Origin: Lachnospiraceae bacterium
GTDB lineage: Bacteria > Bacillota > Clostridia > Lachnospirales > Lachnospiraceae
Length of the DNA stretch: 64,000 bases
NCBI GenBank assembly: GCA_028693705.1
Contig: JAQUUX010000002.1
Location: forward strand, 1 to 64,000
Direction of reading: 5' to 3'
Shown: piece by piece, positions 46,193-63,397 of the stretch
Layout: every line of letters starts with the position of its first letter
Position numbering within the stretch: position 1 is the first letter of the stretch
Notes under the pieces: generated by a model
Told to the model about the DNA's origin: nothing
The model's input: only the letters and a program-made list of their open reading frames with translations
The model's database searches: none
Translations under genes and position numbers: made by a program

Positions 46193-47380
46193 TTACTCGA
46201 TGATTGTAGCAACACGTCCTGAACCTACAGTACGTCCACCTTCACGGATAGCGAAAGTAAGACCCTGCTCCATAGCGATTGGATGGATCAGTTCGATAGT
46301 CATTTCTACGTTATCACCAGGCATACACATTTCAACACCAGCTGGAAGATCACAAACACCTGTGATATCAGTTGTTCTGAAGTAGAACTGTGGTCTGTAG
46401 TTGTTGAAGAAAGGAGTATGACGTCCACCTTCATCTTTTGTTAAAACGTAAACCTGAGCTGTAAATTTCTTGTGGCAGGTAACTGTACCTGGTTTAGCAA
46501 GAACCTGACCTCTTTCGATATCAGTTCTCTGGATACCACGAAGAAGAACACCGATGTTATCTCCAGCTTCAGCTTCATCCAATAATTTACGGAACATTTC
46601 GATACCAGTTACAACAGACTTCTGGTTCTCTTCTTTGATACCGATGATTTCTACTTCATCAGACATGTGTAACTGTCCACGCTCTACTCTACCAGTAGCA
46701 ACAGTACCACGACCTGTGATAGAGAATACATCTTCGATAGGCATTAAGAAAGGCTTATCTGTATCACGCTGAGGATCTGGAATATAGTCATCTACAGTAG
46801 ACATAAGTTCCATGATCTTGTCACCCCATTCGCCAGTAGGATCTTCAAGAGCTTTTAAAGCAGAACCTTTAACGATTGGGCAGTCATTGAATCCGTACTC
46901 TTCAAGCTGTTCTGTAACTTCCATCTCAACCAGCTCGATAAGTTCTGGATCATCAACCATATCACATTTGTTCAAGAATACTACGATATAAGGTACACCA
47001 ACCTGACGGGACAGAAGGATATGCTCCTTTGTCTGAGCCATAACACCATCAGTAGCAGCAACAACAAGGATAGCACCATCCATCTGTGCAGCACCGGTGA
47101 TCATGTTCTTTACATAATCAGCATGGCCAGGGCAGTCAACGTGAGCGTAATGTCTCTTGTCTGTTTCGTACTCAACGTGAGCTGTAGAGATAGTGATACC
47201 TCTTTCTCTTTCTTCTGGAGCCTTATCGATATTTGCGAAATCTACCGCTGCGTTACCAGCAACTCTTTCGGATAATACTTTTGTGATTGCAGCTGTTAAA
47301 GTAGTTTTACCATGATCTACGTGACCGATGGTACCAATATTACAATGTGGTTTGTTTCTTTCAAATTTAGCTTTAGCCAT
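46193..47380 (-). CDS. tuf: Elongation factor Tu
   Basis: EF-Tu (395 residues) brings aminoacyl-tRNA to the ribosome. It has the G1 motif GHVDHGKT (18-25), the switch ERERGIT, DCPGH, and NKCD, and domains 2 and 3 complete ([28 protein letters not shown]). It has its own strong promoter just after fusA and a strong terminator. Confidence 0.99.
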
Positions 47381-47453
47381 TTCTAAAGTCCTCCTTATTT
47401 TGATAAAAATTAGTTTTCATTTTAGATTAAAAAAGTTTTCCTGCGTACCTATG

Positions 47454-47482
47454 ATTATATTAAAAAACCATAGCTTTTTCAA
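47454..47482 (-). promoter_or_regulatory. tuf promoter
   Basis: TTGAAA (47477-47482), 17 bases, TATAAT (47454-47459) on the minus strand. The -35 begins three bases after the fusA stop codon, so tuf can be expressed apart from the str operon. Confidence 0.78.
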
Positions 47483-47485
47483 GTA

Positions 47486-49609
47486 TTATTTACCAGCTTT
47501 AGCAGCAAGTACTTTTTCCTGAACATTCTTTGGTACTGGCTCATATTTCTCGAAGAACATTGAGTAGTTACCACGTCCCTGTGTCTTAGAACGTAAGTCT
47601 GTGGAATAACCGAACATTTCAGCAAGTGGTACATAACCTTTAACCATCTTACCGCCACCGATATCTTCCATACCTTCAATACGTCCACGACGGGAGTTGA
47701 TATCACCGATTACATCGCCCATGTATTCTTCAGGCATTGTAACTTCGACTTTCATGATAGGCTCTAATAATACCGGAGCTGCTTTCTTCATAGCTTCCTT
47801 GAATGCCATGGAACCGGCAATGTGGAATGCCATTTCAGAAGAATCGACTTCATGGTAAGAACCATCATATACGTTAGCGTGAACACCAAGTACCGGAAAT
47901 CCTCCAAGGATACCAGCCTTAGCAGCTTCTTCGATACCTTCACCAACTGGTGCAATATATTCCTTAGGAATAGCACCACCGACTACAGTAGACTCAAACT
48001 TGAATGTCTCTTCGCCGTTAGGATCCATAGGATCGAATTTAACTTTACAGTGTCCGTACTGTCCACGTCCACCGGACTGCTTAGCGTATTTGTATTCCTG
48101 ATCAACAGGCTTTGTAAAGGTTTCTTTGTAAGCAACCTGAGGTGCTCCTACATTAGCCTCTACCTTAAACTCTCTTAACAAACGGTCAACGATGATTTCC
48201 AGATGTAACTCACCCATACCAGCGATGATGGTCTGACCAGTTTCCTGATCAGTGTGAGCACGGAAAGTAGGATCTTCTTCTGCTAACTTAGCAAGAGCTT
48301 CACCCATCTTGTCCTGACCAGCTTTTGTCTTAGGCTCGATTGCCAGCTCGATAACTGGTTCAGGGAATTCCATAGACTCCAGAATAACCGGATGCTGTTC
48401 ATCACAGATTGTATCACCTGTTGTGGTGAACTTAAATCCTACTGCAGCTGCGATATCACCGGCGAATACTTCGTCCAGTTCCTTACGCTTGTTAGCATGC
48501 ATCTGTAAGATACGTCCAACACGTTCTTTTTTGTCCTTTGTAGCATTTAATACATAAGAACCAGCTTTCATAGTACCAGAGTAAACTCTGAAGAATGCAA
48601 GCTTTCCAACGAATGGATCGGCCATAATCTTAAATGCAAGAGCTGCGAAAGGTTCGTCATCGGAAGAATGTCTTTCAACTTCGTTACCATCTAAGTCAAC
48701 ACCTTTGATATCAGGGATATCGGTAGGAGCCGGCATGAATTCGATGATAGCATCCAATAACTTCTGTACACCCTTGTTTCTGTAAGCTGTACCACAGCAA
48801 ACAGGAATAGCTGTACATTCGCAGGTACCTTTTCTCAAAGCAGCTTTCATTGCTTCAACGGTAGGTACTTCACCTTCCAGATACTGCATCATCAGATCAT
48901 CGTCTAATTCACAGCACTTTTCAATCAATTCTTCATGATAGAGTTCTGCATCATCCTTCATATCCTCTGGGATATCTGTGATGGAGATGTCTTCACCCTT
49001 CTCATCATTATAGATATATGCTTTCATTTCAAACAAATCAATGATTCCCTTGAAATCGTCTTCTTTACCAATTGGTAACTGAAGACAGATAGCATTTTTA
49101 CCTAATCTTGTTTTAATCTGATCAACTGCGCCATAGAAATTTGCACCTAAGATATCCATCTTGTTGATGAATGCCATACGAGGTACATTGTAGGTGTCAG
49201 CCTGACGCCATACGTTTTCTGACTGTGGCTCAACACCACCTTTTGCACAGAATACGCCGACAGCGCCATCCAGTACACGGAGAGAACGCTCTACTTCTAC
49301 AGTAAAGTCAACGTGGCCAGGGGTATCAATGATATTGATACGATGCTCAAGAGCACCCGGCTTTGCCTTGCAATTCTCTTCCAATGTCCAGTGACATGTG
49401 GTAGCAGCTGATGTGATTGTAATACCTCTTTCCTGCTCCTGCTCCATCCAGTCCATGGTAGCAGTGCCTTCATGAGTATCACCGATCTTATAGTTTACGC
49501 CAGTGTAGTAAAGAATACGCTCGGTAAGCGTAGTCTTACCAGCATCGATATGCGCCATGATACCGATGTTTCTGGTTCTCTCTAAGGGATATTCTCTCTC
49601 TACAGCCAA
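47486..49609 (-). CDS. fusA: Elongation factor G
   Basis: EF-G (707 residues) drives translocation. It shows [17 protein letters not shown] (G1), the effector region [22 protein letters not shown] and the C-terminal [17 protein letters not shown] place the start at the TTG at 49609: GGAGGA lies 7 bases before it and the product then begins [17 protein letters not shown] as in related EF-Gs. ATGs further upstream (49624, 49654) would add an N-terminal tail and overlap the ribosome binding site. Confidence 0.96.
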
Positions 49610-49686
49610 AGCTTTTTCCTCCATATAATAATCTGCAGGACCGAAGTCCTGCACAACATCTAAAAATAAATTCTACAAATCTGGAA

Positions 49687-50265
<579 letters not shown>

Positions 50266-50414
50266 TCAATGTGTTCGTGCGGTATATCTGAAAATTTTAA
50301 AATAAAAAGTAATCAGAATCCAACACTAAAAACTTAGTCCCTTTTGTGGTACATGCTGTTTTTCACAGCAACAGCTCAAATGAACTGCCTAAGCATCTTG
50401 ATCTTGCGACCTGA

Positions 50415-50834
50415 TTACTTAGAAGCCTTAGGTCTCTTAGCGCCATATTTGGAGCGGGCCTGTCTTCTGTTAGCGACACCTGCAGTATCAAGGGTACCTC
50501 TGATGATATGGTATCTTGTACCTGGTAAGTCCTTAACACGGCCGCCACGAATAAGAACAACACTATGTTCCTGTAAGTTATGTCCTTCACCTGGAATGTA
50601 GCTTGTTACTTCGATTCCGTTGGAAAGACGAACTCTGGCGATCTTTCTAAGAGCTGAGTTAGGTTTCTTAGGAGTTGCTGTCTTAACAGCTGTACAAACA
50701 CCTCTCTTCTGCGGAGCAGCGCTATCGATGGATCTCTTCTTTAAAGAATTGAAACCCTTCTGTAATGCTGGTGCAGTAGACTTCTTTACAGATGTCTGAC
50801 GTCCTTTTCTTACTAACTGGTTAAATGTTGGCAT
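50415..50834 (-). CDS. rpsL: 30S ribosomal protein S12
   Basis: S12 (139 residues) sits at the decoding site. It has [38 protein letters not shown]-type sequence, and the loop [25 protein letters not shown]. Lys at the classical streptomycin position (KKPNSAL) is wild-type. First gene of the str group, with a strong promoter about 100 bases upstream. Confidence 0.98.
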
Positions 50835-50910
50835 TCCGATTCACCTCCTGTGTGTAATATAATGGTTGTTGTTTCTGATTTCTCAGAAATTTGTTATGCA
50901 GCAAAAAAGA

Positions 50911-50964
50911 AATGCATTTGCATGCACACTAGAAGATTATACGTGCTTGCAAATGCATTGTCAA
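50911..50964 (-). promoter_or_regulatory. str operon promoter with flanking inverted repeat
   Basis: On the minus strand a full consensus TTGACA (50959-50964), 17 bases, TATAAT (50936-50941). A 17-base inverted repeat with one mismatch (50911-50927 and 50943-50959) has one arm in the spacer and the other across the expected transcript start. This could be an operator or the 5' hairpin of the message. Confidence 0.85.
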
Positions 50965-51017
50965 CATTTATTTTGCTGCTTTCGCAGCGTTTTTGTGTAT
51001 CTTTTTTAGCTATATTT

Positions 51018-51704
51018 TTAGTTCTGCTCTTTTTTCTTGCGGAACTTCAGTGTTACGTAAACGCCTGCTGCTGCAGATCCTGCCATAGCTACCACATAAG
51101 GTACCATGTTAGTATCATCTCCGGTCTTCACTGCACCAAGAACGTCTCCTCTGTTTGCACCTAATACTGCGCCAAGTGCAACCGGTTCGTCAGCGATGGT
51201 TCTGGTAGCACCAAGAACGCTTGCTGTACCGGTGGTCATTGCAGGACCATCCAGTTCTGCATTGTAGTTATCATCGTTACCACCTGTAGACGGCTGAGCT
51301 GGGGTAGGTGCTACAACCGGGATGAAAGAATCACGGATTTCGGTAATCTCTGTTACCTTTCCATCAATTTCATCCAGTGCACCTTCAGCTGTGACGAGCT
51401 GTGCTGCCAAGTTATTATATCTTTCCCAAGCTGCATCTAAGGCTGCTTTTGCTGCTGCCAGTTCTTCTGCTTTAACACCAATGCTTAATTTTAATTTTTT
51501 CAGATATTCTTCTGCTTCTAAAGCTTCCTGATAAGCGCCATCTGTTTTACCCTTTAAGTACTGGATCTTTTCATTCAAGCAATTGGTAAGCTTTTCTGTT
51601 AGCTCTGCAAAAGCTGTCATCGGTATTGAACTTGTCATAGTTGCTACTGCAAGACCAATTGCCATAGCCTGTTTTACTTTTCTTCCACCTAAATTTCGTC
51701 TCAT
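51018..51704 (-). CDS. Secreted surface protein with cell-wall sorting tail
   Basis: The 228-residue product has a signal peptide (about 1-32, ending AFA), a helical/coiled-coil middle (about 35-118, rich in Ala, Glu, Lys), then a segment DDNYNAELDGPAMT, three VLGA repeats and the C-terminal tail VKTGDDTN, a hydrophobic helix and RKKKEQN. The tail has the layout of a sortase signal with a degenerate LPxTG (AVKTGD). The same tail is on the larger protein that follows upstream. Function unknown; a wall-linked surface protein is inferred. A promoter region with a TGTGACC tandem box lies upstream. Confidence 0.82.
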   Translation of the reverse strand: MRRNLGGRKVKQAMAIGLAVATMTSSIPMTAFAELTEKLTNCLNEKIQYLKGKTDGAYQEALEAEEYLKKLKLSIGVKAEELAAAKAALDAAWERYNNLAAQLVTAEGALDEIDGKVTEITEIRDSFIPVVAPTPAQPSTGGNDDNYNAELDGPAMTTGTASVLGATRTIADEPVALGAVLGANRGDVLGAVKTGDDTNMVPYVVAMAGSAAAGVYVTLKFRKKKEQN

Positions 51705-51797
51705 TTGTTTTCTTCCTGCATAATTTTCTGTTGTATGGGGTTCTTTTACATATCATGGTACTTTAGAACCACCGTATAGAAAACTATACAATATTTT

Positions 51798-51815
51798 GGT
51801 CACACAGCGGTCACA
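51798..51815 (-). promoter_or_regulatory. Tandem TGTGACC box 1
   Basis: On the minus strand TGTGACC-N4-TGTGACC: two 7-base direct repeats with 11-base period, 94 bases before the 228-residue surface gene. The spacing fits OmpR/PhoB-family response-regulator sites. A matching box lies before the 1185-residue gene. Confidence 0.65.
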
Positions 51816-51939
51816 CGGGAGACTTTCATGTCTTCTCATCTAACAAGTGGAACAAAAATAGAGAAATTGTGTCTTATTTTACACAATTCCTCTATTTTGT
51901 ATAGAGACGTTTATATGAAGTTTAGTTGAAAGCTGTTAC

Positions 51940-54900
51940 TTAGTCTTCTTTTTTCTTACGGGATGTTACTACACAACCTGCTCCAACTGCTGCTGCGCCT
52001 GCCATTGCCAGTACGAATGGAAGTGCATTAGTATCATCACCAGTCTTAACTGCTCCAAGAACTGCTCCTTCTCTGTTTGCACCAAGTACCATGCCTTCTG
52101 CTGGTGTAGTTGCTGTTCTGGTTGCACCAAGAACTTCTGCCGTTGTAAATCCACCAGTCATTGCCGGGCCATCTAAATCAGGATTGTAGTTATCATTGCC
52201 GCCACCTTCGCCAGGTTCTGTTGGCTGTGTTGGAACGGTTGGTCTTGTATAGTTAAATACAAATCCATCTAAGTGATAACCTACTGTGCCGATATCAGAT
52301 TCTCTCTTCAATGTATATGCAATAAAGTAAGTACCATTTGGCATACCTTCTGTAGATAAATACTTATCACCTGTCAATACATAGTTTCCATTTTCATCTA
52401 ACACAGCAACCCAGTAAACAGGACTCATTGTTGCACCGGTTACGGTAGGATCTACATTATATGCAATACCGCTTCCGTTCTTTTCTGTAACCTTCGGGGT
52501 TCCAGCCGGAGCAGTCACACCATTGTAGAGTGCCTCAACATACTGACGATACATGGTATAAGGAATTTCAATGCTCATCTTACCATCAGAAATCATCACA
52601 AAGTTTGCAGTTGGACGAGATATTACAGTACCATCTGTCTGATCATATTCTGTAAAATACTTATCTCCCATCGCAATACCGGCTTCTGCTTTCTGTGCAA
52701 ATGCAGTGGCAACCTGTTCATTAACCAGGTTCTCTGCCCATCTGCTATAGGTTTCTGCTACTTTTGCAGATGCAGCAGCTTCTTTCAGTTTATCTGCTGC
52801 CTTTGCCAGTTTTGCTTCTGCTGCATCAATCGTAGCCTGTAAATCTGCCAACTTGATTGCATCTAATTTCAGGTTTTCTACTTTTGCTTTTGCTGCTGCC
52901 AGATCATCTGCTGCATTTTTATATGCTTCCTGTGCATCTGCTAAAGTACCTTTTGCTGCATCTGTTGTTACTTTTGCAGCTGCGGCTGCATCAACATAAG
53001 GTTTCAGCAATGCTACCTGTGCTTTTGCTGCTTCAAAATCAGCACTTGCGTCAGCTGATGCAAAATAGGATTCTACAGTTGCCATCTTTTCTTCATATGT
53101 TTTCAGATTGGATCTATATGCTGTAACAATGGCATTCATCAGTTCATCTGTCTTCTCTGTAGATACTGCCCACTGGGAAAGCCCCAGGCGATTGAATATC
53201 TGCTGTGCTTTTCCTACATCATAGGTTTTATCCATATCTGTTCTGATATCTTTGGAATCTGAATAGGTTGCATAGATTTGTTCAACAGTCTCCCAATCCC
53301 AATTCCAATCCACATCCTCATATTTATCAAAAGTGGTGTTAGCCCATGCATTTAAGTCCTGATCGAATTCAACCTGATTGATTCCGTTAGAATTTGCCTG
53401 GATCAACTCCTTGATTGCTCCAAGAGTTGCTTTTTGTGCATCTTTTTCATATGCGTCTTTGGCTGCTTCAAGATATTTGTCACGTGTTTCTTCAGCAGCT
53501 TTAAGAACTGCTTCCAGCTGTGGAATCTCTTCTTCTACTTTCACTCTTTTAGCTTCATTTGCGGCCTCTACTGCAGCAGCTGCATCTTCTTTTGCCTGTT
53601 TTGCTTCCTGAATTGCAGATGTGGCAGCATTTTTTTCATTTTCTAACTCCGTTAATGATTTGTTGTTAGTGATGATATCATTCGCATCCTCATATTTCTT
53701 CTTAACAGCATTAGCCTTATCTAAATCGTACTGTGTGTTACCAACCCAGACTTTACCCACAAATAGTACATTTATAAAATAACCCAGACCGTCTTCAATT
53801 GTTTCCTCTGCTATTTCAAGTTTTGATGGAATCCATCCGGTAATTCCCTTGTATGTCAAATCCTCGACTGTATCTTTTGCATTTTTAACCGTTTGAATTG
53901 TGGTTTGTAATGTTTTTTCTTCCTCTTCTTTCTGAGAAATCAAAGCATCTTTTTCGGTATCAATTGCTGTCTGATTATCTTTTGCTGTTTGAATTGCAGT
54001 ATCCAATGCAGGAACTTCACCTTTTGCGGCATCTACTGCTTCTTTAGCAGGTGTTACATAATGTTCTGCAACCAAACCTGCTGATGTACTGGCAGCCTGT
54101 GAAAAAGCACCAATACCAGGTACATAATCACCATTTTCATCAATATAACCGTTTACTGCCTTATCAACAGCTTTATTTGCATCCTGTGCTGCCTGGTCGG
54201 CTGCTTCGACTTTACCTGCTGCGGTATTTACAGCAGTTGTCTTGTCTGCAATATCTTTTTCCAGCTGAGTAAGATCTTTATCTAATACAGTATCAATTTT
54301 ATCCTGTACAATTACTGCATTTACAGTTGCTGCAAGTGTAAGTTTATCAGATACCTTTTCAGGATCACTGGTCAAGCCTAATTTATTTAACTGATCCTCT
54401 GTATAAGATACTGTAACTGTTTCTACAGGAGTAAGTTTTCCAATTTCTACTGCCTTCTCATCATCAGTCAGAGTTGCATCATTTTCAATTGCTGCTTTTT
54501 TCTCATTATATACCTTCTGCTGTGCTTCTACTTCAGCCTTCTTGGTTTCAATAGCAGCTTTCTGTTCATCTGTATACTCGATATCAGTTGTTCCTGTATA
54601 TAAAGGAAGACCGTAACTCATAGCGTATTTATTATAAGTAGTAATTGCATCATCAGCATCTTCTTTTACTTTATCATATTGTACTTTAGCTGCTGTTGCT
54701 GCCCCTGTTGCTGTTGCTGCTGCTGCTCTTACTTCATCAACCTTAGCTAATACTTCCGGAGTTACAACATCACTCTTTTTAGCTTCTTCGATTGTCTCAC
54801 CGAGCTTATCATATGCAAGATCTTTTGCTGCTTCAGCTTCATCGGCTTTTTCAGCTACAAAATCTTCAATTTCAATCTTCGTATCATTACCATTTTCATC

Positions 54901-55497
54901 TGTCGCTGGCACAGTTGTATCAATTTCTTCTTTTTCTTTATCGATTGCAGCCTGGTCTTTTGCAACTGTCTGATTAAAGCTCTCTGCTCCGGCTACTGCC
55001 TCGTCTGTAATTTCTTTTATTTCATTACTTGCATCCGTTACATCCTTAACCACTTCGCCAGCTGCTGTCTGTGCATCTCCTGCTAGAGTTCCCAGTCCAG
55101 TAATCGGATCTACAGGATTACCCTCTGCATCCTTTACTCCTTCAACTGCTTTATCTACTGCTGCTACAGCATCTTCAACATCTTTATAAACACCTTTTGC
55201 TGCCTCTGTTTCTGTTGAAGGGCTTCCCAGCAAATCTGCTGCTGCATCTGCTGCCTCTTTTGCATCTGCTGCATCTTCCTGCATCTGAGCAGCATCTGCA
55301 TTTCCGGATGTTTCATCATTAGTATACTCAGGTTCATCTTCATCTACATAATCATAATTATGATCATTGACACTTTCATTATTTCCTTTGTTTGGTTCTT
55401 CTGCAAATACAGGTAACACGCTGCTGGTTGCCATCATTGCTGCCATTGCAAAAGCAATACTCTGTGTAACAACTTTTTTCCCAATATTCCTCTTCAT
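51940..55497 (-). CDS. Large coiled-coil surface protein with cell-wall sorting tail
   Basis: The 1185-residue protein has a signal peptide (about 1-31, AFA-type ending in VFAEE), a very Ala/Lys/Glu/Asp-rich helical body (about 60-950) predicted as coiled coil, a globular beta-rich region (about 960-1090: YFTEYDQTDG… YWVAVLDENGNYVLTG… YHLDGFVFNYT), a Pro/Thr/Gly linker, and the tail NDNYNPDLDGPAMTGG, VLGA repeats, VKTGDDTN, hydrophobic helix, RKKKED. GGAG precedes the ATG. A long rod that projects a domain from the wall is inferred. No enzyme motif was recognised. Its tail is a paralogue of that in the 228-residue protein. Confidence 0.85.
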   Translation of the reverse strand: MKRNIGKKVVTQSIAFAMAAMMATSSVLPVFAEEPNKGNNESVNDHNYDYVDEDEPEYTNDETSGNADAAQMQEDAADAKEAADAAADLLGSPSTETEAAKGVYKDVEDAVAAVDKAVEGVKDAEGNPVDPITGLGTLAGDAQTAAGEVVKDVTDASNEIKEITDEAVAGAESFNQTVAKDQAAIDKEKEEIDTTVPATDENGNDTKIEIEDFVAEKADEAEAAKDLAYDKLGETIEEAKKSDVVTPEVLAKVDEVRAAAATATGAATAAKVQYDKVKEDADDAITTYNKYAMSYGLPLYTGTTDIEYTDEQKAAIETKKAEVEAQQKVYNEKKAAIENDATLTDDEKAVEIGKLTPVETVTVSYTEDQLNKLGLTSDPEKVSDKLTLAATVNAVIVQDKIDTVLDKDLTQLEKDIADKTTAVNTAAGKVEAADQAAQDANKAVDKAVNGYIDENGDYVPGIGAFSQAASTSAGLVAEHYVTPAKEAVDAAKGEVPALDTAIQTAKDNQTAIDTEKDALISQKEEEEKTLQTTIQTVKNAKDTVEDLTYKGITGWIPSKLEIAEETIEDGLGYFINVLFVGKVWVGNTQYDLDKANAVKKKYEDANDIITNNKSLTELENEKNAATSAIQEAKQAKEDAAAAVEAANEAKRVKVEEEIPQLEAVLKAAEETRDKYLEAAKDAYEKDAQKATLGAIKELIQANSNGINQVEFDQDLNAWANTTFDKYEDVDWNWDWETVEQIYATYSDSKDIRTDMDKTYDVGKAQQIFNRLGLSQWAVSTEKTDELMNAIVTAYRSNLKTYEEKMATVESYFASADASADFEAAKAQVALLKPYVDAAAAAKVTTDAAKGTLADAQEAYKNAADDLAAAKAKVENLKLDAIKLADLQATIDAAEAKLAKAADKLKEAAASAKVAETYSRWAENLVNEQVATAFAQKAEAGIAMGDKYFTEYDQTDGTVISRPTANFVMISDGKMSIEIPYTMYRQYVEALYNGVTAPAGTPKVTEKNGSGIAYNVDPTVTGATMSPVYWVAVLDENGNYVLTGDKYLSTEGMPNGTYFIAYTLKRESDIGTVGYHLDGFVFNYTRPTVPTQPTEPGEGGGNDNYNPDLDGPAMTGGFTTAEVLGATRTATTPAEGMVLGANREGAVLGAVKTGDDTNALPFVLAMAGAAAVGAGCVVTSRKKKED

Positions 55498-55572
55498 ACT
55501 ATACGTTCTCCTTTTATTTAACTAAATTACCTTCGTTTTCTGTTCTCTATGATACTTAGTATAAACACCATT

Positions 55573-55590
55573 GGTCACATAATGGTCACA
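55573..55590 (-). promoter_or_regulatory. Tandem TGTGACC box 2
   Basis: TGTGACC-N4-TGTGACC on the minus strand, 76 bases before the 1185-residue gene, in the gap shared with the divergent lipoprotein gene. Same 7-base unit and period as box 1. Bases after it (GGTG…AAGTATCAT) resemble those before the smaller gene (GGTG…AAGTACCAT), which suggests a common promoter type. Confidence 0.65.
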
Positions 55591-55691
55591 CAGAAAAAAC
55601 TTTTTATCCTTTTGGCGAAAGTATCTTACTTTTTCATTTAATTTCATGACATGATTTCATTTTTCGACAAAAACACTTATAATAGGAAGTA

Positions 55692-56669
55692 ATGAAATCA
55701 AAAATTCTTTTTTGTAAAATTACAACTGCATATCTATTAGCCGCTATGTGTTTCTCCGGCTGTGGTTCCACCAATACAACTGCTGTGACCAGCGTTGATA
55801 CAAACCAGCCGCAGGAAACTGATGAAACCTTCGAGATCTCTACCACAAAAGGAAGTCGTGACAATGCAATTCAGGCTTTGGAGGTTCTGGCAGATGGTAC
55901 AGAAGTTTACAGCTGTGATGTTGCTGTCATTGATGCTTCCCACAAGAATGAAGGATATCTCTGTGTGAAATACACCGGAACCTGTCAAAAGGTCAAACTG
56001 CAGATCTCTGGCAGCACCGGCGGTACCTATACTTACAATCTGCTTGGAAGCGAGTTTGAATCATTTCCGCTGTCCGTTGGCAGTGACACCTATAAGGTAG
56101 CTGTTTATGAGAACATTGCCGACAGCCAGTATTCCACTGCTTTTAGCGAGGATATTGATGTGACTATAGAAAATGAGTTTGGTCCTTTTCTATATCCGAA
56201 TCAGTATGTTTCTTTTACAGCCGATTCCGAAACGGTGACTCTGGGTGCAGATCTGGCTTACTCTGCCAACAGCGATCTGGATGTGGTATCCAATGTCTAC
56301 AACTATGTAGTTCATAATATTTCCTATGACCATGACAAGGCAAACACTGTGGCCAGCGGATACACTGCTGATGTAGATGAGATCCTGGAAAAAGGAAACG
56401 GTATATGCCTGGACTATGCTGCCGTTATGGCAACTATGCTTCGCAGTCAACGCATTCCCACCAAGTTGGACGTGGGTTATGCCGGTACGGAATATCACGC
56501 CTGGGTAAGTACTTATATTGATGATGTGGGCTGGGTAGACGGCATTATTCAGTTCGATGGACAGAACTGGCAGATGATGGATCCTACGTTCGCTGCCAAT
56601 ACAGATGAAAAAGCGTTTGAAGAATTTTTCAAGGATTCTACCAATTACAATGTAAAATACGTTTATTAG
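55692..56669 (+). CDS. Transglutaminase-domain lipoprotein
   Basis: The 325-residue product has a lipoprotein signal (lipobox FSGC near 21-24), a Thr/Asp-rich linker, a beta-sandwich region (about 60-170) and a C-terminal transglutaminase-like domain with the catalytic triad candidates Cys in GNGICLDYAA, His in TEYHAW and Asp in MMDPTF. Such domains act as papain-fold peptidases or cross-linkers outside the cell. AGGAAG is only 2-3 bases before the ATG, which is unusually close, but the signal peptide requires this start. It is followed by the pilus-like operon. Confidence 0.86.
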   Translation: MKSKILFCKITTAYLLAAMCFSGCGSTNTTAVTSVDTNQPQETDETFEISTTKGSRDNAIQALEVLADGTEVYSCDVAVIDASHKNEGYLCVKYTGTCQKVKLQISGSTGGTYTYNLLGSEFESFPLSVGSDTYKVAVYENIADSQYSTAFSEDIDVTIENEFGPFLYPNQYVSFTADSETVTLGADLAYSANSDLDVVSNVYNYVVHNISYDHDKANTVASGYTADVDEILEKGNGICLDYAAVMATMLRSQRIPTKLDVGYAGTEYHAWVSTYIDDVGWVDGIIQFDGQNWQMMDPTFAANTDEKAFEEFFKDSTNYNVKYVY

Positions 56670-56732
56670 TAATTACCTGTATTATCATAATTACTTATAT
56701 ATATAGAAGAAAGTTCCTTAGAGGAGGACTAT

Positions 56733-57779
56733 ATGAAATCAAAACATATGCTTAGTAATGCAGAAATAGCATCTTTCAGTGAGCAGGTAGCACTTTTATT
56801 TCACGCCGGTATTACGCCTACAGAGAGTATGCGTATCTTATTAGAGGATACGGACGATCATTTTGGAAAGGATGTCATTCAATCCATTCTGGATGTCTGT
56901 GAACAGGGTGAAAGTTTCTATAAGGCAATGTCTACTGCAGAAGTTTTCCCCAATTATGTGTTACACATGGTTTCTCTTGGCGAGGCATCCGGTAATCTGG
57001 ATGATGTCATGCAATCCCTTGCAGACTACTATGAGCATGAAAATCAGATCAATGAAAGTCTTAGAAGTGCGATCTCTTATCCTCTGGTGATGATCCTCAT
57101 GATGTTACTTGTCATTATCGTCCTGATCACAAAGGTTCTTCCTATTTTCAATCAGGTATTCGTACAATTAGGAAATGAAATGACGGGGCTGGCTGCTAAT
57201 ATGATGCAGCTTGGCAATATTCTAAAGCAGTATTCTATTGGATTTGCTGCCTTTCTGGTAATCCTCCTTATTACTTTCTTCTACTGCACCAAAACGATGC
57301 ACGGAAAAGAACTGGCACACCGTGCACTGGCTCACTTTGGTCCTATGAAATCCTTTTACCGTAATGTTGCCGCCGGTCGTTTTGCCAGTGGTATGGCGCT
57401 TGCCCTGAGCAGCGGTATGGATACTTACGAAAGTCTGGATCTGGTAGCTGAACTGGTAAATTATCAGGAAGTGCATGACAAGATTATGTCCTGTAAAAAA
57501 TCCATTGAAGACGGGGATAATTTTACGGAGTCTCTTCTAAAATGTGGCATTTTTAACAATTTGTATTCCCGTATGGTTGCCGTTGGTTTTAAGAGCGGTT
57601 CCATGGATAAGGTAATGTCCAGGATTGCTGCCGGATATGATAAGGAAACAGATCAGCGTATTCATTCCATTATTTCTGTTTTGGAACCTACCTTAGTTAT
57701 TGTTTTATCACTGATCGTTGGTTTGATCTTACTATCTGTTATATTGCCATTAATGGGTATCATGTCCAGTATTGGTTAG
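56733..57779 (+). CDS. Type II secretion/type IV pilus inner-membrane protein (GspF/PilC family)
   Basis: The 348-residue membrane protein has two T2SSF domains: one before the first helix (about 10-110; FSEQVALLFHAGITPTESM, LGEASGNLDDVMQ) and a second (about 205-315; FASGMALALSSGMDTYESLD, VGFKSGSMDKVMSRI), with membrane helices at about 110-135, 160-180 and 318-345. It is the platform on which pilin-like fibres assemble. GAGGAGG precedes the ATG. No GspE/PilB ATPase or prepilin peptidase is in the window. Confidence 0.92.
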   Translation: MKSKHMLSNAEIASFSEQVALLFHAGITPTESMRILLEDTDDHFGKDVIQSILDVCEQGESFYKAMSTAEVFPNYVLHMVSLGEASGNLDDVMQSLADYYEHENQINESLRSAISYPLVMILMMLLVIIVLITKVLPIFNQVFVQLGNEMTGLAANMMQLGNILKQYSIGFAAFLVILLITFFYCTKTMHGKELAHRALAHFGPMKSFYRNVAAGRFASGMALALSSGMDTYESLDLVAELVNYQEVHDKIMSCKKSIEDGDNFTESLLKCGIFNNLYSRMVAVGFKSGSMDKVMSRIAAGYDKETDQRIHSIISVLEPTLVIVLSLIVGLILLSVILPLMGIMSSIG

Positions 57780-57816
57780 CTGTGAATTCTTTATTTCCAC
57801 AGGATGGGAGTTATTT

Positions 57817-58164
57817 ATGAATTGTTTTGCACATCAAAAGTCAAAACTGCATATTTTATCGAAGATTAAGATTCCGGTAATTTTATTTCTGCTGTTGTTT
57901 ACATTCATCTGGCAGGGTATAGATTCCGTCAGTTCCACCAGTCTGGATAAACAGCAGGAAAGTCTGGAAACAGCCCTTAGTCGGGACATTGCCCAATGCT
58001 ATGCTGTAGAAGGTACTTATCCTCCCAGTCTGGAATATCTGCGAGAGCATTATGCATTAACCTATAATGACAAGCTTTTCTTTGTAGACTATCAGGCGCA
58101 GGGGGCTAATATTATGCCGGACGTGACTGTGATCAGGAAAGGCGGTGATCCAAGTGCACAATAA
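57817..58164 (+). CDS. Small single-span protein, pilin-like operon
   Basis: The 115-residue product has a basic N-terminus, one hydrophobic segment (about 18-33) and a soluble C-terminal domain with AQCYAVEGTYPPSLEYLREHY, a pattern common after the helix of type II pseudopilins. It lacks a clear prepilin cleavage site with Glu5. GGGAG precedes the ATG at 57817. Unnamed; minor-pilin-like is inferred from place and pattern. Confidence 0.75.
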   Translation: MNCFAHQKSKLHILSKIKIPVILFLLLFTFIWQGIDSVSSTSLDKQQESLETALSRDIAQCYAVEGTYPPSLEYLREHYALTYNDKLFFVDYQAQGANIMPDVTVIRKGGDPSAQ

Positions 58165-58660
58165 ACGTGAAAATTCTTATATGGTTGACGTGTTGTTTAT
58201 CCTGGTTTTATTTTTCACCTTTGCCTTCTCCTCTCTGCTGCTGGTCATCATCGGTGCTAATATCTACGAACATACTGTATCAGACATGTCTGTTAACTTT
58301 AACAGCCGTACTGCTTTTGCCTATGTCACAGAAAAAATCAGGCAGGGCGACCAGACTGGTGCCGTAGAAGTTGGAACCTTAGACGGACAGGATGCTTTGC
58401 AGATACGAGAAGAAATAAACGGTGATTCTTACACAACATCCATTTATTTCCATGAGGGTAATCTGATGGAATTATTTTCCAGATCAGATGCTGATCTTTC
58501 TGCTTCTGCCGGTCAGAAGATCATGAAATGCAATGATTTTCAGGTAGAATCTGTTTCAGACCATCTGTATCGTATCCGATTAACGACAGAAGACTCCAAG
58601 GAGATGTCACTATTTGTCAGCACCCATTCTGCACCGGTGGAAACCGCCCCTGCTAACTAA
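58145..58660 (+). CDS. DUF4860-type membrane protein
   Basis: The 171-residue product has an N-terminal membrane segment (VDVLFILVLFFTFAFSSLLLVIIGA, about 14-38) and an exported domain with TAFAYVTEKIRQGDQTGAVEV and IYFHEGNLMELF. The pattern matches DUF4860 proteins that occur in Lachnospiraceae pilus-like clusters. It starts with GTG at 58145 after AAAGG and overlaps the previous gene by 20 bases. Confidence 0.8.
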   Translation: MIQVHNKRENSYMVDVLFILVLFFTFAFSSLLLVIIGANIYEHTVSDMSVNFNSRTAFAYVTEKIRQGDQTGAVEVGTLDGQDALQIREEINGDSYTTSIYFHEGNLMELFSRSDADLSASAGQKIMKCNDFQVESVSDHLYRIRLTTEDSKEMSLFVSTHSAPVETAPAN

Positions 58661-58683
58661 AGAAAAGGACTCAGGTATTTATT

Positions 58684-59139
58684 ATGAAGCATTCCAAATC
58701 AAGCCTTTTTTTGATGGAAATGATTATCAGCATAATGTTTTTCTCCCTTGCCAGTGCCGCATGCATTCAGCTTTTCGTCAAGGCTCATTTTCTGGATAAG
58801 GACAGTATCGCCCAAAATAATGCCGTAGTTCAGGCGCAAAATCTCGCAGAAGGTTTTGGGGGCTGTGATGGTGACCTGGCTACGATGAAAAGTCTGTTTC
58901 CCTCCGATGCAATTACACCCACTGATCATGAGCTTTTCATCTATTTTGATGCTGAATGGAAATATATCGATGCTGAAGATGCAGTTTATTGTGCTGCATT
59001 GTCGATTACCGGCGAACGTTCTCCCGGTTCCATGCTCCATGGTCATATTGCAGTAACAGAGCTGGACGCTCCAGATTCCGATCCTATTTATACACTGGAC
59101 TTGGATCAATATTTTCCGGAAAGGAGTGCTGCTAAATGA
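58684..59139 (+). CDS. Type IV pilin-like protein
   Basis: The 151-residue product has a short basic N-terminus, a hydrophobic helix (LFLMEMIISIMFFSLASAACIQLFV, about 8-33) of pilin type with a Glu at position 12, and a soluble acidic domain. The Glu after a short basic leader resembles class III signal peptides, though the processing Gly is replaced by Leu or Met. Function in fibre assembly is inferred. Confidence 0.75.
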   Translation: MKHSKSSLFLMEMIISIMFFSLASAACIQLFVKAHFLDKDSIAQNNAVVQAQNLAEGFGGCDGDLATMKSLFPSDAITPTDHELFIYFDAEWKYIDAEDAVYCAALSITGERSPGSMLHGHIAVTELDAPDSDPIYTLDLDQYFPERSAAK

Positions 59140-59576
59140 ACAATAAACGACGTACCGATTTTGGCGTTAATACAGGTTCTGCCTCTTTGCTGATGATCTT
59201 CGTTGTCCTTTGTCTGGTATCCTTCGCCGCGCTTAGCATTGTCAGTGCCAATGCAGATTATAAATTAAACCAAAAGGTTGCGGATCGTACTACAGCTTAT
59301 TATAGTGCCTGTAACGAGACCGAAACTGCTATTGCAGATATTGATAAGACATTGAAAACCACTTATGAAACGGTTTCTACCAGACATGAATACTTTGATC
59401 TGGTAGGACATGATATTCACTATGCCATTCCGATCTCTGACCTGCAGACTTTGAAAATCACACTGAATGTCCTATATCCCAGTGCTCCGGATCAGCCTTT
59501 TTATGAGATTACCAGTTGGGAAGTAAAGACTACCGGAGATCTGGAATACGATAGTTCTTTACCCGTTCCAAAATAG
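59136..59576 (+). CDS. Small single-span exported protein, end of pilin-like operon
   Basis: The 146-residue product has a short basic head (NNKRRTDFG), a hydrophobic helix (about 16-38) and an exported domain with YYSACNETETAIADIDKTL. It overlaps the gene before by 4 bases (ATGA) and has GGAAAGGAG upstream. No family was named; it resembles minor pseudopilins in layout. A strong terminator ends the operon. Confidence 0.75.
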   Translation: MNNKRRTDFGVNTGSASLLMIFVVLCLVSFAALSIVSANADYKLNQKVADRTTAYYSACNETETAIADIDKTLKTTYETVSTRHEYFDLVGHDIHYAIPISDLQTLKITLNVLYPSAPDQPFYEITSWEVKTTGDLEYDSSLPVPK

Positions 59577-59609
59577 AATTTCAAGCACAATACATAGTTT
59601 TCATACTGC

Positions 59610-59658
59610 AAAAAAGAACCGATGAACAACAGTTAACTGTCATCATCGGTTCTTTTTT
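59610..59658. terminator. Bidirectional terminator between pilin-like operon and rpoC
   Basis: AAAAAAGAACCGATGA and TCATCGGTTCTTTTTT form a 16-bp stem with a 17-base loop and T-runs on both strands. Confidence 0.93.
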
Positions 59659-59704
59659 ATTTCGATTTGGTATTTGATGCAATATTGCAATACCTTCTCA
59701 AATA

Positions 59705-62700
59705 TTATTCTTCAGTGGTTGTAACTTCTTCTGTAGCTTCGTCTTCAACAGCGATATCAATTGCATCAACTGTATCGTCCTCATCCATTCCGAAGTCATC
59801 AGACAATGTAAATTCATCGTCCAGACTCAAAGTAGCTTCCAGATTGTTATCTGTATTCAGTCTGGTACCACGATATCTCTTCATACCTGTTCCGGCCGGA
59901 ATCAGCTTACCAAGGATAACGTTTTCTTTCAGACCAATCAATGGATCAATCTTACCCTTAATAGCAGCTTCTGTCAGAACCTTTGTAGTCTCCTGGAAGG
60001 AAGCAGCTGACATGAAGGAGTTAGTTGCAAGAGCTGCCTTGGTAATACCAAGCATTACCCGCTTACCTTCTGCAGGTCTCTTACCTTCTTCAACCAGTTT
60101 CTCGTTGCTATCTTCGTAATCCAGAATTTCTACCAGAGATCCAGGTAAGAAATCGGTATCTCCTCTTTCTTCGATTCTGATTCTCTTAAGCATCTGACGA
60201 ACGATAACTTCGATATGCTTATCAGCGATATCAACACCCTGCAGACGATATACACGCTGTACTTCACGAAGCATGTAATCCTGAACCGCACGGATACCTT
60301 TGATCTTTAACAGATCATGAGGATTTACGGAACCTTCTGTCAGTTCTTCACCAGCCTCTAATTCCTGACCGTCCAGAACCTTGATACGGGAACCATAAGG
60401 GATCAGGTATGCTTTGCTTTCGCCTGTTTCGTTGTTGGTTACTACAACTTCACGTTTCTTCTTGGTATCACGGATTTCTACTTTACCGCCAAACTCTGCG
60501 ATAATAGCAAGACCCTTAGGCTTACGTGCTTCAAACAATTCCTCTACACGGGGAAGACCCTGTGTGATATCATCACCGGCAACACCACCGGTATGGAATG
60601 TACGCATGGTCAGCTGGGTACCAGGTTCACCGATGGACTGTGCAGCGATAATACCAACTGCTTCACCAACCTGAACGCCTTCACCTGTTGCCATATTAGC
60701 ACCGTAACATTTTGCACAGATACCGTTGTGGCATCTACAGGTCAGAATCGTACGAATCTTCACTGCTTCTACCGGCTCACCCTTTTCGTTTACACCAACA
60801 GTCATGATCTTAGCTGCACGACTAGGTGTAATCATATGGTTTGCCTTAACCAGAACGTTTCCGTCTTTATCTTTCATATCCTCACATGCATATCTGCCTG
60901 TGATACGATCCTGTAAACCTTCAATTGTTTCTCTACCATCTGTGAAAGCCTTAACAACCATGCCAGGGATCTTTCCAGTACCTTCGCAACAATCAATCTC
61001 ACGAATGATCAGTTCCTGTGATACATCGACCATACGACGGGTCAAGTATCCGGAATCGGCTGTACGAAGAGCGGTATCGGACAAACCTTTACGAGCTCCA
61101 TGAGCGGACATAAAGTATTCCAGTACATCCAGACCTTCACGAAAGTTTGACTTGATAGGCAACTCGATTGTTCTACCGGTTGTATCAGCCATCAAACCAC
61201 GCATACCTGCCAGCTGTTTGATCTGCTGGTTGGAACCACGGGCTCCGGAATCGGCCATCATGAAGATGTTATTATATTTATCCAGACCATCTAACAGGTC
61301 TTTGGTAACTCTTCCATCGATTTCATTCCAGGTCTCAACTACGGCTCTGTAACGTTCTTCATCTGTGATCAGACCACGTCTGAAGTTCTTGGTGATCTTA
61401 TCAACAGTGTCCTGTGCCTCTGCTAACAGTTCCGGCTTGCTGGCAGGAACGGTCATATCAGAAATGGAAACGGTCATGGCAGCCTTAGTAGAATAATGAT
61501 AACCAGTGGACTTGATCAGATCCAGTACTTCTGCTGTTTTAAATACACCATGTGTATTGATAACCTTCTCCAGGATCTGCTTTAGCTGCTTCTTAGCAAC
61601 CAGGAAGTCTACTTCCAGTTTTAAGAAGTTTTCAGGATCAGTTCTATCTACATAGCCTAAATCCTGTGGCAGTATCTCATTGAACAGAAAACGTCCAACT
61701 GTGGATTCTACGTTACCGGTGATTTCCTCACCTTTTTCATTCTTCTTGGTCACACGAATAGTTACACGGGAATGCAATGTGCAGACACCATTTTCGTATG
61801 CAAGAATTGCTTCATTTAAGTTCTTGAAGAACTTACCTTCACCAGGTGCACCAGGTCTTTCCTGTGTCAGATAATAGATACCCAGAACCATATCCTGTGA
61901 AGGAACGGCTACAGGACCACCATCTGATGGCTTTAACAGGTTGTTCGGAGATAACAGTAAGAAACGACATTCTGCCTGAGCTTCCTGTGTTAATGGAAGA
62001 TGGACAGCCATCTGATCTCCATCGAAATCGGCATTGAAAGCGGTACAAACCAAAGGATGCAGCTTAATAGCCTTACCTTCTACGAGGATAGGCTCAAATG
62101 CCTGGATACCTAATCTATGCAGTGTGGGGGCACGGTTTAACATAACCGGATGCTCCTTAATAACTTCTTCAAGTACATCCCAAACCTGGGTATCAAGTCT
62201 TTCTACTAATTTCTTAGCATTCTTGATATTCTGTGAGATGCCTCTGGCAACAAGCTCTTTCATAACGAAAGGCTTGAATAATTCGATTGCCATTTCCTTT
62301 GGCAGACCACACTGGTAAATCTTTAATTCCGGTCCTACAACGATAACGGAACGTCCTGAATAGTCAACACGCTTACCTAACAGGTTCTGACGGAAACGTC
62401 CGCCCTTACCTTTTAACATATCGGATAAGGATTTTAATGCTCTGTTACCTGGTCCTGTTACAGGACGGCCACGACGACCATTATCAATCAAAGCATCAAC
62501 AGCTTCCTGGAGCATTCTCTTCTCATTACGAACGATGATGTCAGGTGCACCCAGCTCTAACAGTCTCTTCAGACGGTTATTACGGTTGATGATTCTTCTG
62601 TATAAATCATTTAAATCAGATGTAGCAAATCGACCACCATCCAGCTGTACCATAGGACGTAAGTCCGGAGGGATAACCGGTACTGCATCCAGGATCATCC

Positions 62701-63397
62701 ATTCAGGTTTGTTGCCGGATTCACGGAAAGCTTCTACAACTTCCAGTCTTTTGATGATTCTGGCTTTTTTCTGACCAGAAGCATCTTCCAGATCAGCCTG
62801 CAGTGTCTGATGCTCTGCTTCCAGGTCAATACCTCTCAGCAACTCTTTTACAGCTTCAGCACCCATTCCTGCACGGAACTTATTACCATATTCATCTTTT
62901 GCATCCTGGTATTCCTTTTCAGATAATACCTGCTTGTATTCCAAATTGCTTTCGCCTGGATCCAATACAATATAAGATGCAAAGTACAGAACTCTCTCCA
63001 AAATTCTTGGAGAAAGATCCAGGATCAGACCCATACGGCTTGGAATTCCCTTAAAATACCAGATATGGGAAACCGGTGCAGCCAGTTCGATATGACCCAT
63101 ACGCTCTCTACGAACAGATGCTTTGGTTACTTCTACACCGCATCGATCGCAGACAACGCCTTTATATCTAATCTTCTTGTATTTACCACAATGACACTCC
63201 CAATCTTTACTGGGTCCAAAGATCTTTTCACAGAAAAGACCATCTTTCTCAGGTTTAAGAGTTCTATAGTTAATGGTTTCCGGCTTTAATACTTCTCCGT
63301 GGGACCATTCTCTGATTTTCTCAGGTGACGCAAGACCAATTTTGATTGCATCAAATGTCATTGGCTGATACGTTTGTTCTTGTTTTGTTTCGGACAT
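59705..63397 (-). CDS. rpoC: RNA polymerase beta' subunit
   Basis: Beta' (1230 residues) carries the active-site Mg ligands [12 protein letters not shown]. The N-terminal zinc site [20 protein letters not shown] and the second, [13 protein letters not shown], are both complete, as are bridge-helix and trigger-loop regions ([26 protein letters not shown]). The C-terminal acidic tail ends in a Thr/Glu run. It lies 53 bases after rpoB. Confidence 0.99.

Follow-up and report, generated by a model that had tools for sequence, protein, structure and literature searches.

SARP activators are known mainly as antibiotic-cluster switches in actinomycetes. Their operators consist of direct repeats with an 11-bp period, the 3′ repeat of which lies 8 bp from the −10 element (PMC10936776). 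For PimR, a SARP-LAL regulator in which the SARP domain is followed by a region described by its authors as cyclase-like (guanylate-cyclase-like), the operator is built from heptamer repeats with 4-nt spacers (PMC5930380). Repeats of 7 bp with 4-bp spacers have also been described for PhoP of M. tuberculosis (PMC4832192).

Here, we analyzed a stretch of 64,000 nucleotides from a Lachnospiraceae bacterium (assembly GCA_028693705.1, contig JAQUUX010000002.1, positions 1 to 64,000; hereafter “the window”), in which two neighboring surface-protein genes are each preceded by a paired TGTGACC box. An initial annotation had placed exact copies of TGTGACC-N4-TGTGACC at 51798-51815 and 55573-55590, each on the coding strand of the next gene and 94 and 76 nt before its start. 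A motif search of the window confirmed both positions, their orientation (minus strand in both cases), and the gaps (94 nt to the gene at 51018-51704, 76 nt to the gene at 51940-55497, same strand as the boxes), and a mismatch search of the rest of the window yielded no further site with fewer than three mismatches to the box. The corresponding features are as follows.

51018..51704, minus strand: secreted 228-aa surface protein carrying a sorting-type signal (VLGA..TGDDTN) at its C-terminus as well as a TM segment and a KKK tail
51783..51788, minus strand: −10 hexamer TATAGT, 8 nt past the second octamer, without −35 element
51797..51815, minus strand: operator 1, octamer direct repeat TGTGACCG-ctg-TGTGACCA (octamers 51815-51808 and 51804-51797)
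51940..55497, minus strand: 1185-aa secreted surface protein, Ala/coiled-coil-rich, with a C-terminal sorting-type signal VLGA..TGDDTN..RKKK
55558..55563, minus strand: −10 hexamer TATACT, 8 nt past the second octamer, without −35 element
55572..55590, minus strand: operator 2, octamer direct repeat TGTGACCA-tta-TGTGACCA (octamers 55590-55583 and 55579-55572)

Across the whole genome (3,121,857 bases in 160 contigs), the exact motif occurs five times, compared with about 0.012 copies expected from a composition model and none found for a reversed control motif. All five copies are followed by a TATAVT hexamer (TATA(A/C/G)T) exactly 9 nt past the second heptamer. They all lack a −35 hexamer, with no more than 2 of 6 positions agreeing with TTGACA for spacers of 16–18. 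Since this −10 spacing was found afterwards and never imposed on the search, it provides independent evidence that the five sites are promoters, and the copy number together with the fixed −10 rules out a chance origin of the boxes. Transcription would start at both window promoters. A one-mismatch site on contig C83 was instead attributed to chance, as it is located within a long ORF (L015:4207-5484, a glutamate-1-semialdehyde aminotransferase as judged by eye) and does not recur with the −10 pattern. Among 73 strict sites, obtained in a search that left the eighth repeat position free, the eighth base is a purine in 94% of first and 91% of second repeats, which extends the element to TGTGACCR-N3-TGTGACCR-N8-TATAMT; the DNA on its 5′ side is A/T-rich, and the N8 spacing is also present in the boxes of relatives. 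Neither the fixed −10 spacing nor the purine position featured in the initial annotation, and both are added here.

The paired TGTGACC is a real, conserved promoter element (operator), and its layout is that of a SARP operator: direct repeats of 11-bp period over the −35 region, with the 3′ octamer 8 nt from the −10 hexamer at all five sites of this genome. The same arrangement, in which 11-bp-period repeats overlap the −35 region and 8 bp separate the 3′ repeat from the −10, characterizes the afs box read by AfsR in Streptomyces coelicolor (PMC10936776), although the repeat here is TGTGACCR. PimR likewise shares heptamers with 4-nt spacers and the combination of a SARP domain with a cyclase-like part, but its repeat is CGGCAAG in up to three copies, its primary operator lies off the −35 position, and its target is polyene biosynthesis (PMC5930380). 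Geometry alone cannot decide which type of regulator is involved, because PhoB/PhoP-type response regulators share the 7-bp repeat and 11-bp period. The WalR box, TGTWAH-N5-TGTWAH, has a similar TGT-A- core and the same period; however, position 4 is a G here, and an association with SARPs is not a known feature of WalR.

Four of the five genomic boxes stand before a gene at a normal leader distance, and three of these four genes encode surface proteins with the same type of sorting signal. The two window proteins are related in their C-terminal part; the 228-aa protein matches TIGR01167 (LPXTG_anchor) at 18.0 bits (cut-off 15.9), and the 1185-aa protein matched no Pfam family. The remaining three boxes are located on other contigs.

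C122: box before the gene of a 2447-aa Cna_B/SpaA-rich surface protein whose C-terminus is similar to that of the window pair, VLGGVRTGDETD
C54: box before a 54-aa small protein (G000:C54:10380-10544, L012), then a secreted CAP-domain protein
C72: perfect box with −10 (G000:C72:16919-16951, L013:8920) between convergent genes

The C72 box aims antisense into a minus-strand GGDEF gene (L013:8968-9573) at its 3′ end, and may drive either antisense RNA or a transcript with a long leader. Glycosyltransferase-like genes were noted ~0.9 kb beyond this box. In the window, the surface-gene cluster is flanked by rpoC (59705-63397) and rpsL-rpsG-fusA-tuf (46193-50834), the whole spanning 46193-63397. 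A transglutaminase-like lipoprotein gene, a T2SSF (PulF-like) gene, and small pseudopilin-like genes follow one another at 55692-59576 on the plus strand, adjoining the oppositely oriented surface genes.

We then considered the box across genomes. With at most one mismatch, the extended pattern was detected in 16 of 397 genomes of the family (reversed control: 0), and the exact pattern in 68 stretches among ~85,000 genomes of a species collection, for about 2 expected. These stretches come from Lachnospiraceae, Oscillospirales-type genomes, Gracilibacteraceae, and Family XIII, i.e., nearly all from Clostridia; two non-clostridial matches (a Dehalococcoidia and a Hydrogenedentota record), both without a SARP, were taken as chance. 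Most stretches lie ahead of genes for secreted or anchored surface proteins. Some genomes contain about ten box sites, and carriers of the box include Roseburia inulinivorans DSM 16841 and Agathobacter ruminis. Sorted by next gene, 74 distinct sites included 40 followed by a crude signal-peptide pattern (a test that is positive for 37% of all ORFs ≥150 aa in the same loci), 14 followed by a small companion protein family, 1 by a SARP, 5 by other genes, and 14 left undecided, with a median box-to-start distance of 90 nt for the signal-peptide and companion classes. Domain-bearing targets include Cna_B, VWA, SpaA, MucBP, and LPXTG-anchored proteins. The initial annotation had been wary of a box that was frequent inside genes or absent before homologues. 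Of 69 strict sites, only 5 fall on an ORF of ≥120 aa, several of these ORFs being on the opposite strand or probably overextended, and the box does stand before surface genes in other genomes. Common control of the two window genes is well supported, given the identical box, the identical −10 spacing, the missing −35 element, and a surface-gene regulon conserved in Clostridia. Short secreted proteins resembling TasA or camelysin, small and without Pfam match, were also seen under the box (L048:1578-2823, L109:4654-5427, and L073:2764-3372), the TasA likeness of the L048 protein being a matter of reading; a signal-peptidase-like gene lies behind the latter, and these loci are possible biofilm-matrix operons.

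Genes for SARP-type regulators track the box. Based on a profile of such proteins, SARP genes adjoin it in 12 different genomes, where a density of roughly 0.5 full-length SARP per Mb would predict about 0.3. The SARP gene is part of a box-led operon in four genomes, in the order box-companion-SARP in L078, L126, and L069 (with a GGDEF gene between companion and SARP in L069) and box-SARP-companion in L118. In G026, the box precedes a BTAD/SARP gene. Within the family, a SARP was found in 14 of 15 box-bearing relatives (one, in G006, as a fragment cut by the contig end) and 14 of 48 box-free ones, with a p-value of about 1e-5 that overstates independence since the genomes are related and counts are uncorrected for relatedness. 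Among the clostridial box genomes of the all-genome scan, 30 of 34 encoded a SARP, mostly in one copy, and the four in which a full-length match was missing are drafts or metagenome assemblies. The relatives' regulators have the domain order of the SARP family, i.e., an N-terminal Trans_reg_C winged helix followed by BTAD (58 bits for BTAD and 34 bits for Trans_reg_C in L017; BTAD above cut-off in L126, L078, and L098). A predicted structure aligned to AfsR (8k60; Z 20.8, 3.6 Å over 244 residues) and EmbR (2fez; Z 20.0, 3.7 Å over 247), suggesting that the box-associated regulators share the winged-helix and BTAD fold of AfsR (Z about 20). In place of the NOD/TPR part of AfsR, the modeled tail resembles GGDEF domains (3ign; Z 14.2, 2.8 Å over 126); it is probably not a cyclase, as the GGDEF signature is replaced in the alignment by sequences like YSDSQ. 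The two systems further differ in that the targets here are clostridial surface adhesins rather than antibiotic genes, that a companion small protein is present, and that SARP binding to the box and the resulting activation are here what we infer. We found no papers on SARPs in Lachnospiraceae or Clostridia, or on this box, in the open-access literature, which does not prove that none exist.

Box and regulator also vary together. An LK[NTS] recognition helix (mostly LKN..YR) was observed in 13 of 15 box-bearing relatives versus 4 of 48 box-free ones, for which only the best SARP of each genome was read. A helix variant with Phe for Tyr, LK[TS]L[MV]FR, prompted a search for TGTAACC boxes: exact or near boxes or half-sites of this type were detected in only 4 of 47 genomes, including all three with the variant helix, and among the 43 other relatives searched only G115 had one, a single mixed site alongside a standard helix. 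The altered recognition helix accompanies the altered box, a covariation that comes from three genera and had been hinted at beforehand by one near-box and three one-mismatch boxes. Given this strong association by neighborhood, co-occurrence, and recognition helix, we consider it quite probable that a SARP-type activator uses the box as its operator, working as in the AfsR–RNA polymerase complex.

The initial annotation had assigned both genes to a single two-component system. The common control that it proposed holds, and the DNA-binding fold of the box reader is likely to be an OmpR-type winged helix, but the two-component link itself did not find support. An OmpR/PhoB-family response regulator that binds the box and activates both genes would fit the repeat length and period, this genome encodes 14 such regulators, and a full-length SARP is absent from its assembly. 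Regulators of this kind, including PhoP, also share with the present case 7-bp direct repeats with 4-bp spacers and a winged-helix dimer as reader, presumed in our case; they differ by a receiver domain and a kinase partner, and are not associated with the box in genomes. Specifically, none of the 14 response-regulator genes of this genome has a box nearby, and response regulators are not enriched around 88 box sites (3 clear cases versus about 2.6 expected), whereas across genomes the presence of a SARP follows the box and its recognition helix covaries with it. Genomic linkage of an operator and its response-regulator gene is common, albeit not obligatory, and overall we regard this alternative as improbable. 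Still less credible is the possibility that the boxes are alike through promoter duplication between neighboring paralogues, without a common regulator: the C-termini of the two proteins are indeed related, but the two promoters have little in common beyond box and −10, and box and spacing recur identically ahead of unrelated genes, both on three further contigs and in dozens of genomes. In its simple form, this reading is refuted by the box sites on other contigs.

The apparent lack of a SARP in this genome has to be weighed alongside. A BTAD search returned no match in the 160 contigs, and no full-length SARP was found in them with a permissive profile (E ≤ 10), in an assembly that is 96.4% complete. 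The five box sites being perfectly kept, we infer that the SARP of this genome is located in an assembly gap. Two matches to the SARP tail were set aside: the one on C19 seemed to be a SARP cut by the contig end and is actually an ordinary GGDEF protein, and the C8 match (G000:C8, L058:6518-7867) is to a REC-GGDEF protein that shares the degenerate tail. SARP-like DNA-binding domains were found in the assembly only in two REC-containing regulators, on C154 and C156, each adjoined by a histidine-kinase-like gene, and such a regulator, combining REC and a SARP-like winged helix and paired with a LytS-like kinase (C154:16780-17561 or C156), might read the box in replacement of a stand-alone SARP. 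However, their recognition helices (NNHISYLKNTR.. and RVKGLYRKAV..) are unlike LKNLVYRLR, the C154 gene is apparently split into two overlapping ORFs, and the C154 locus has no box, so that this substitution also appears unlikely. At that locus (L059:4781-5562), the two ORFs, encoding the receiver and SARP-like DNA-binding parts, share 4 nt, and a LytS-like histidine kinase gene adjoins them; a frameshift, an assembly error, or a real split are all candidates.

Under the SARP reading, the activator would combine an AfsR/EmbR-like winged helix and BTAD with a degenerate GGDEF-like C-terminal domain. Two protomers would sit side by side on the two TGTGACCR repeats, one helical turn apart, and replace the −35 element, with the downstream protomer, 8 bp from the −10, recruiting the housekeeping RNA polymerase. 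Adhesin-like surface genes would thereby be switched on together, and the GGDEF-like tail and the small companion protein are candidates for sensing or tuning the signal. Whether this undescribed system of a SARP–GGDEF-like activator, the box TGTGACCR-N3-TGTGACCR-N8-TATAMT, and a beta-beta-beta-alpha companion serves as a common switch, in Clostridia of the gut and elsewhere, for adhesins, pilin-like proteins, and possibly proteins of the biofilm matrix, perhaps gated by a nucleotide signal via the degenerate GGDEF domain, is in our judgment evenly poised. A SARP promoter logic appears to govern surface proteins in gut Clostridia. Because the box spans 19 bases and its distance to the −10 is fixed, the regulon can be predicted from sequence. 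The covariation of helix and box is in turn amenable to simple DNA-binding assays.

The box also provides a first functional context for the uncharacterized companion family, whose gene frequently comes first behind the box and frequently lies beside the SARP gene. Members (G000:C54:10380-10544 in L012, L101:115-624, L116:4017-4574, L126:7312-7569, and others) are 54–185 aa long. No Pfam or NCBIfam family matched them, and a fold search with the model gave no significant match (best E 0.16). They share a core motif, WQG.I.W....FRS.LE, and are predicted to form two beta-beta-beta-alpha repeats, or one in short members, with a core pLDDT of about 90.
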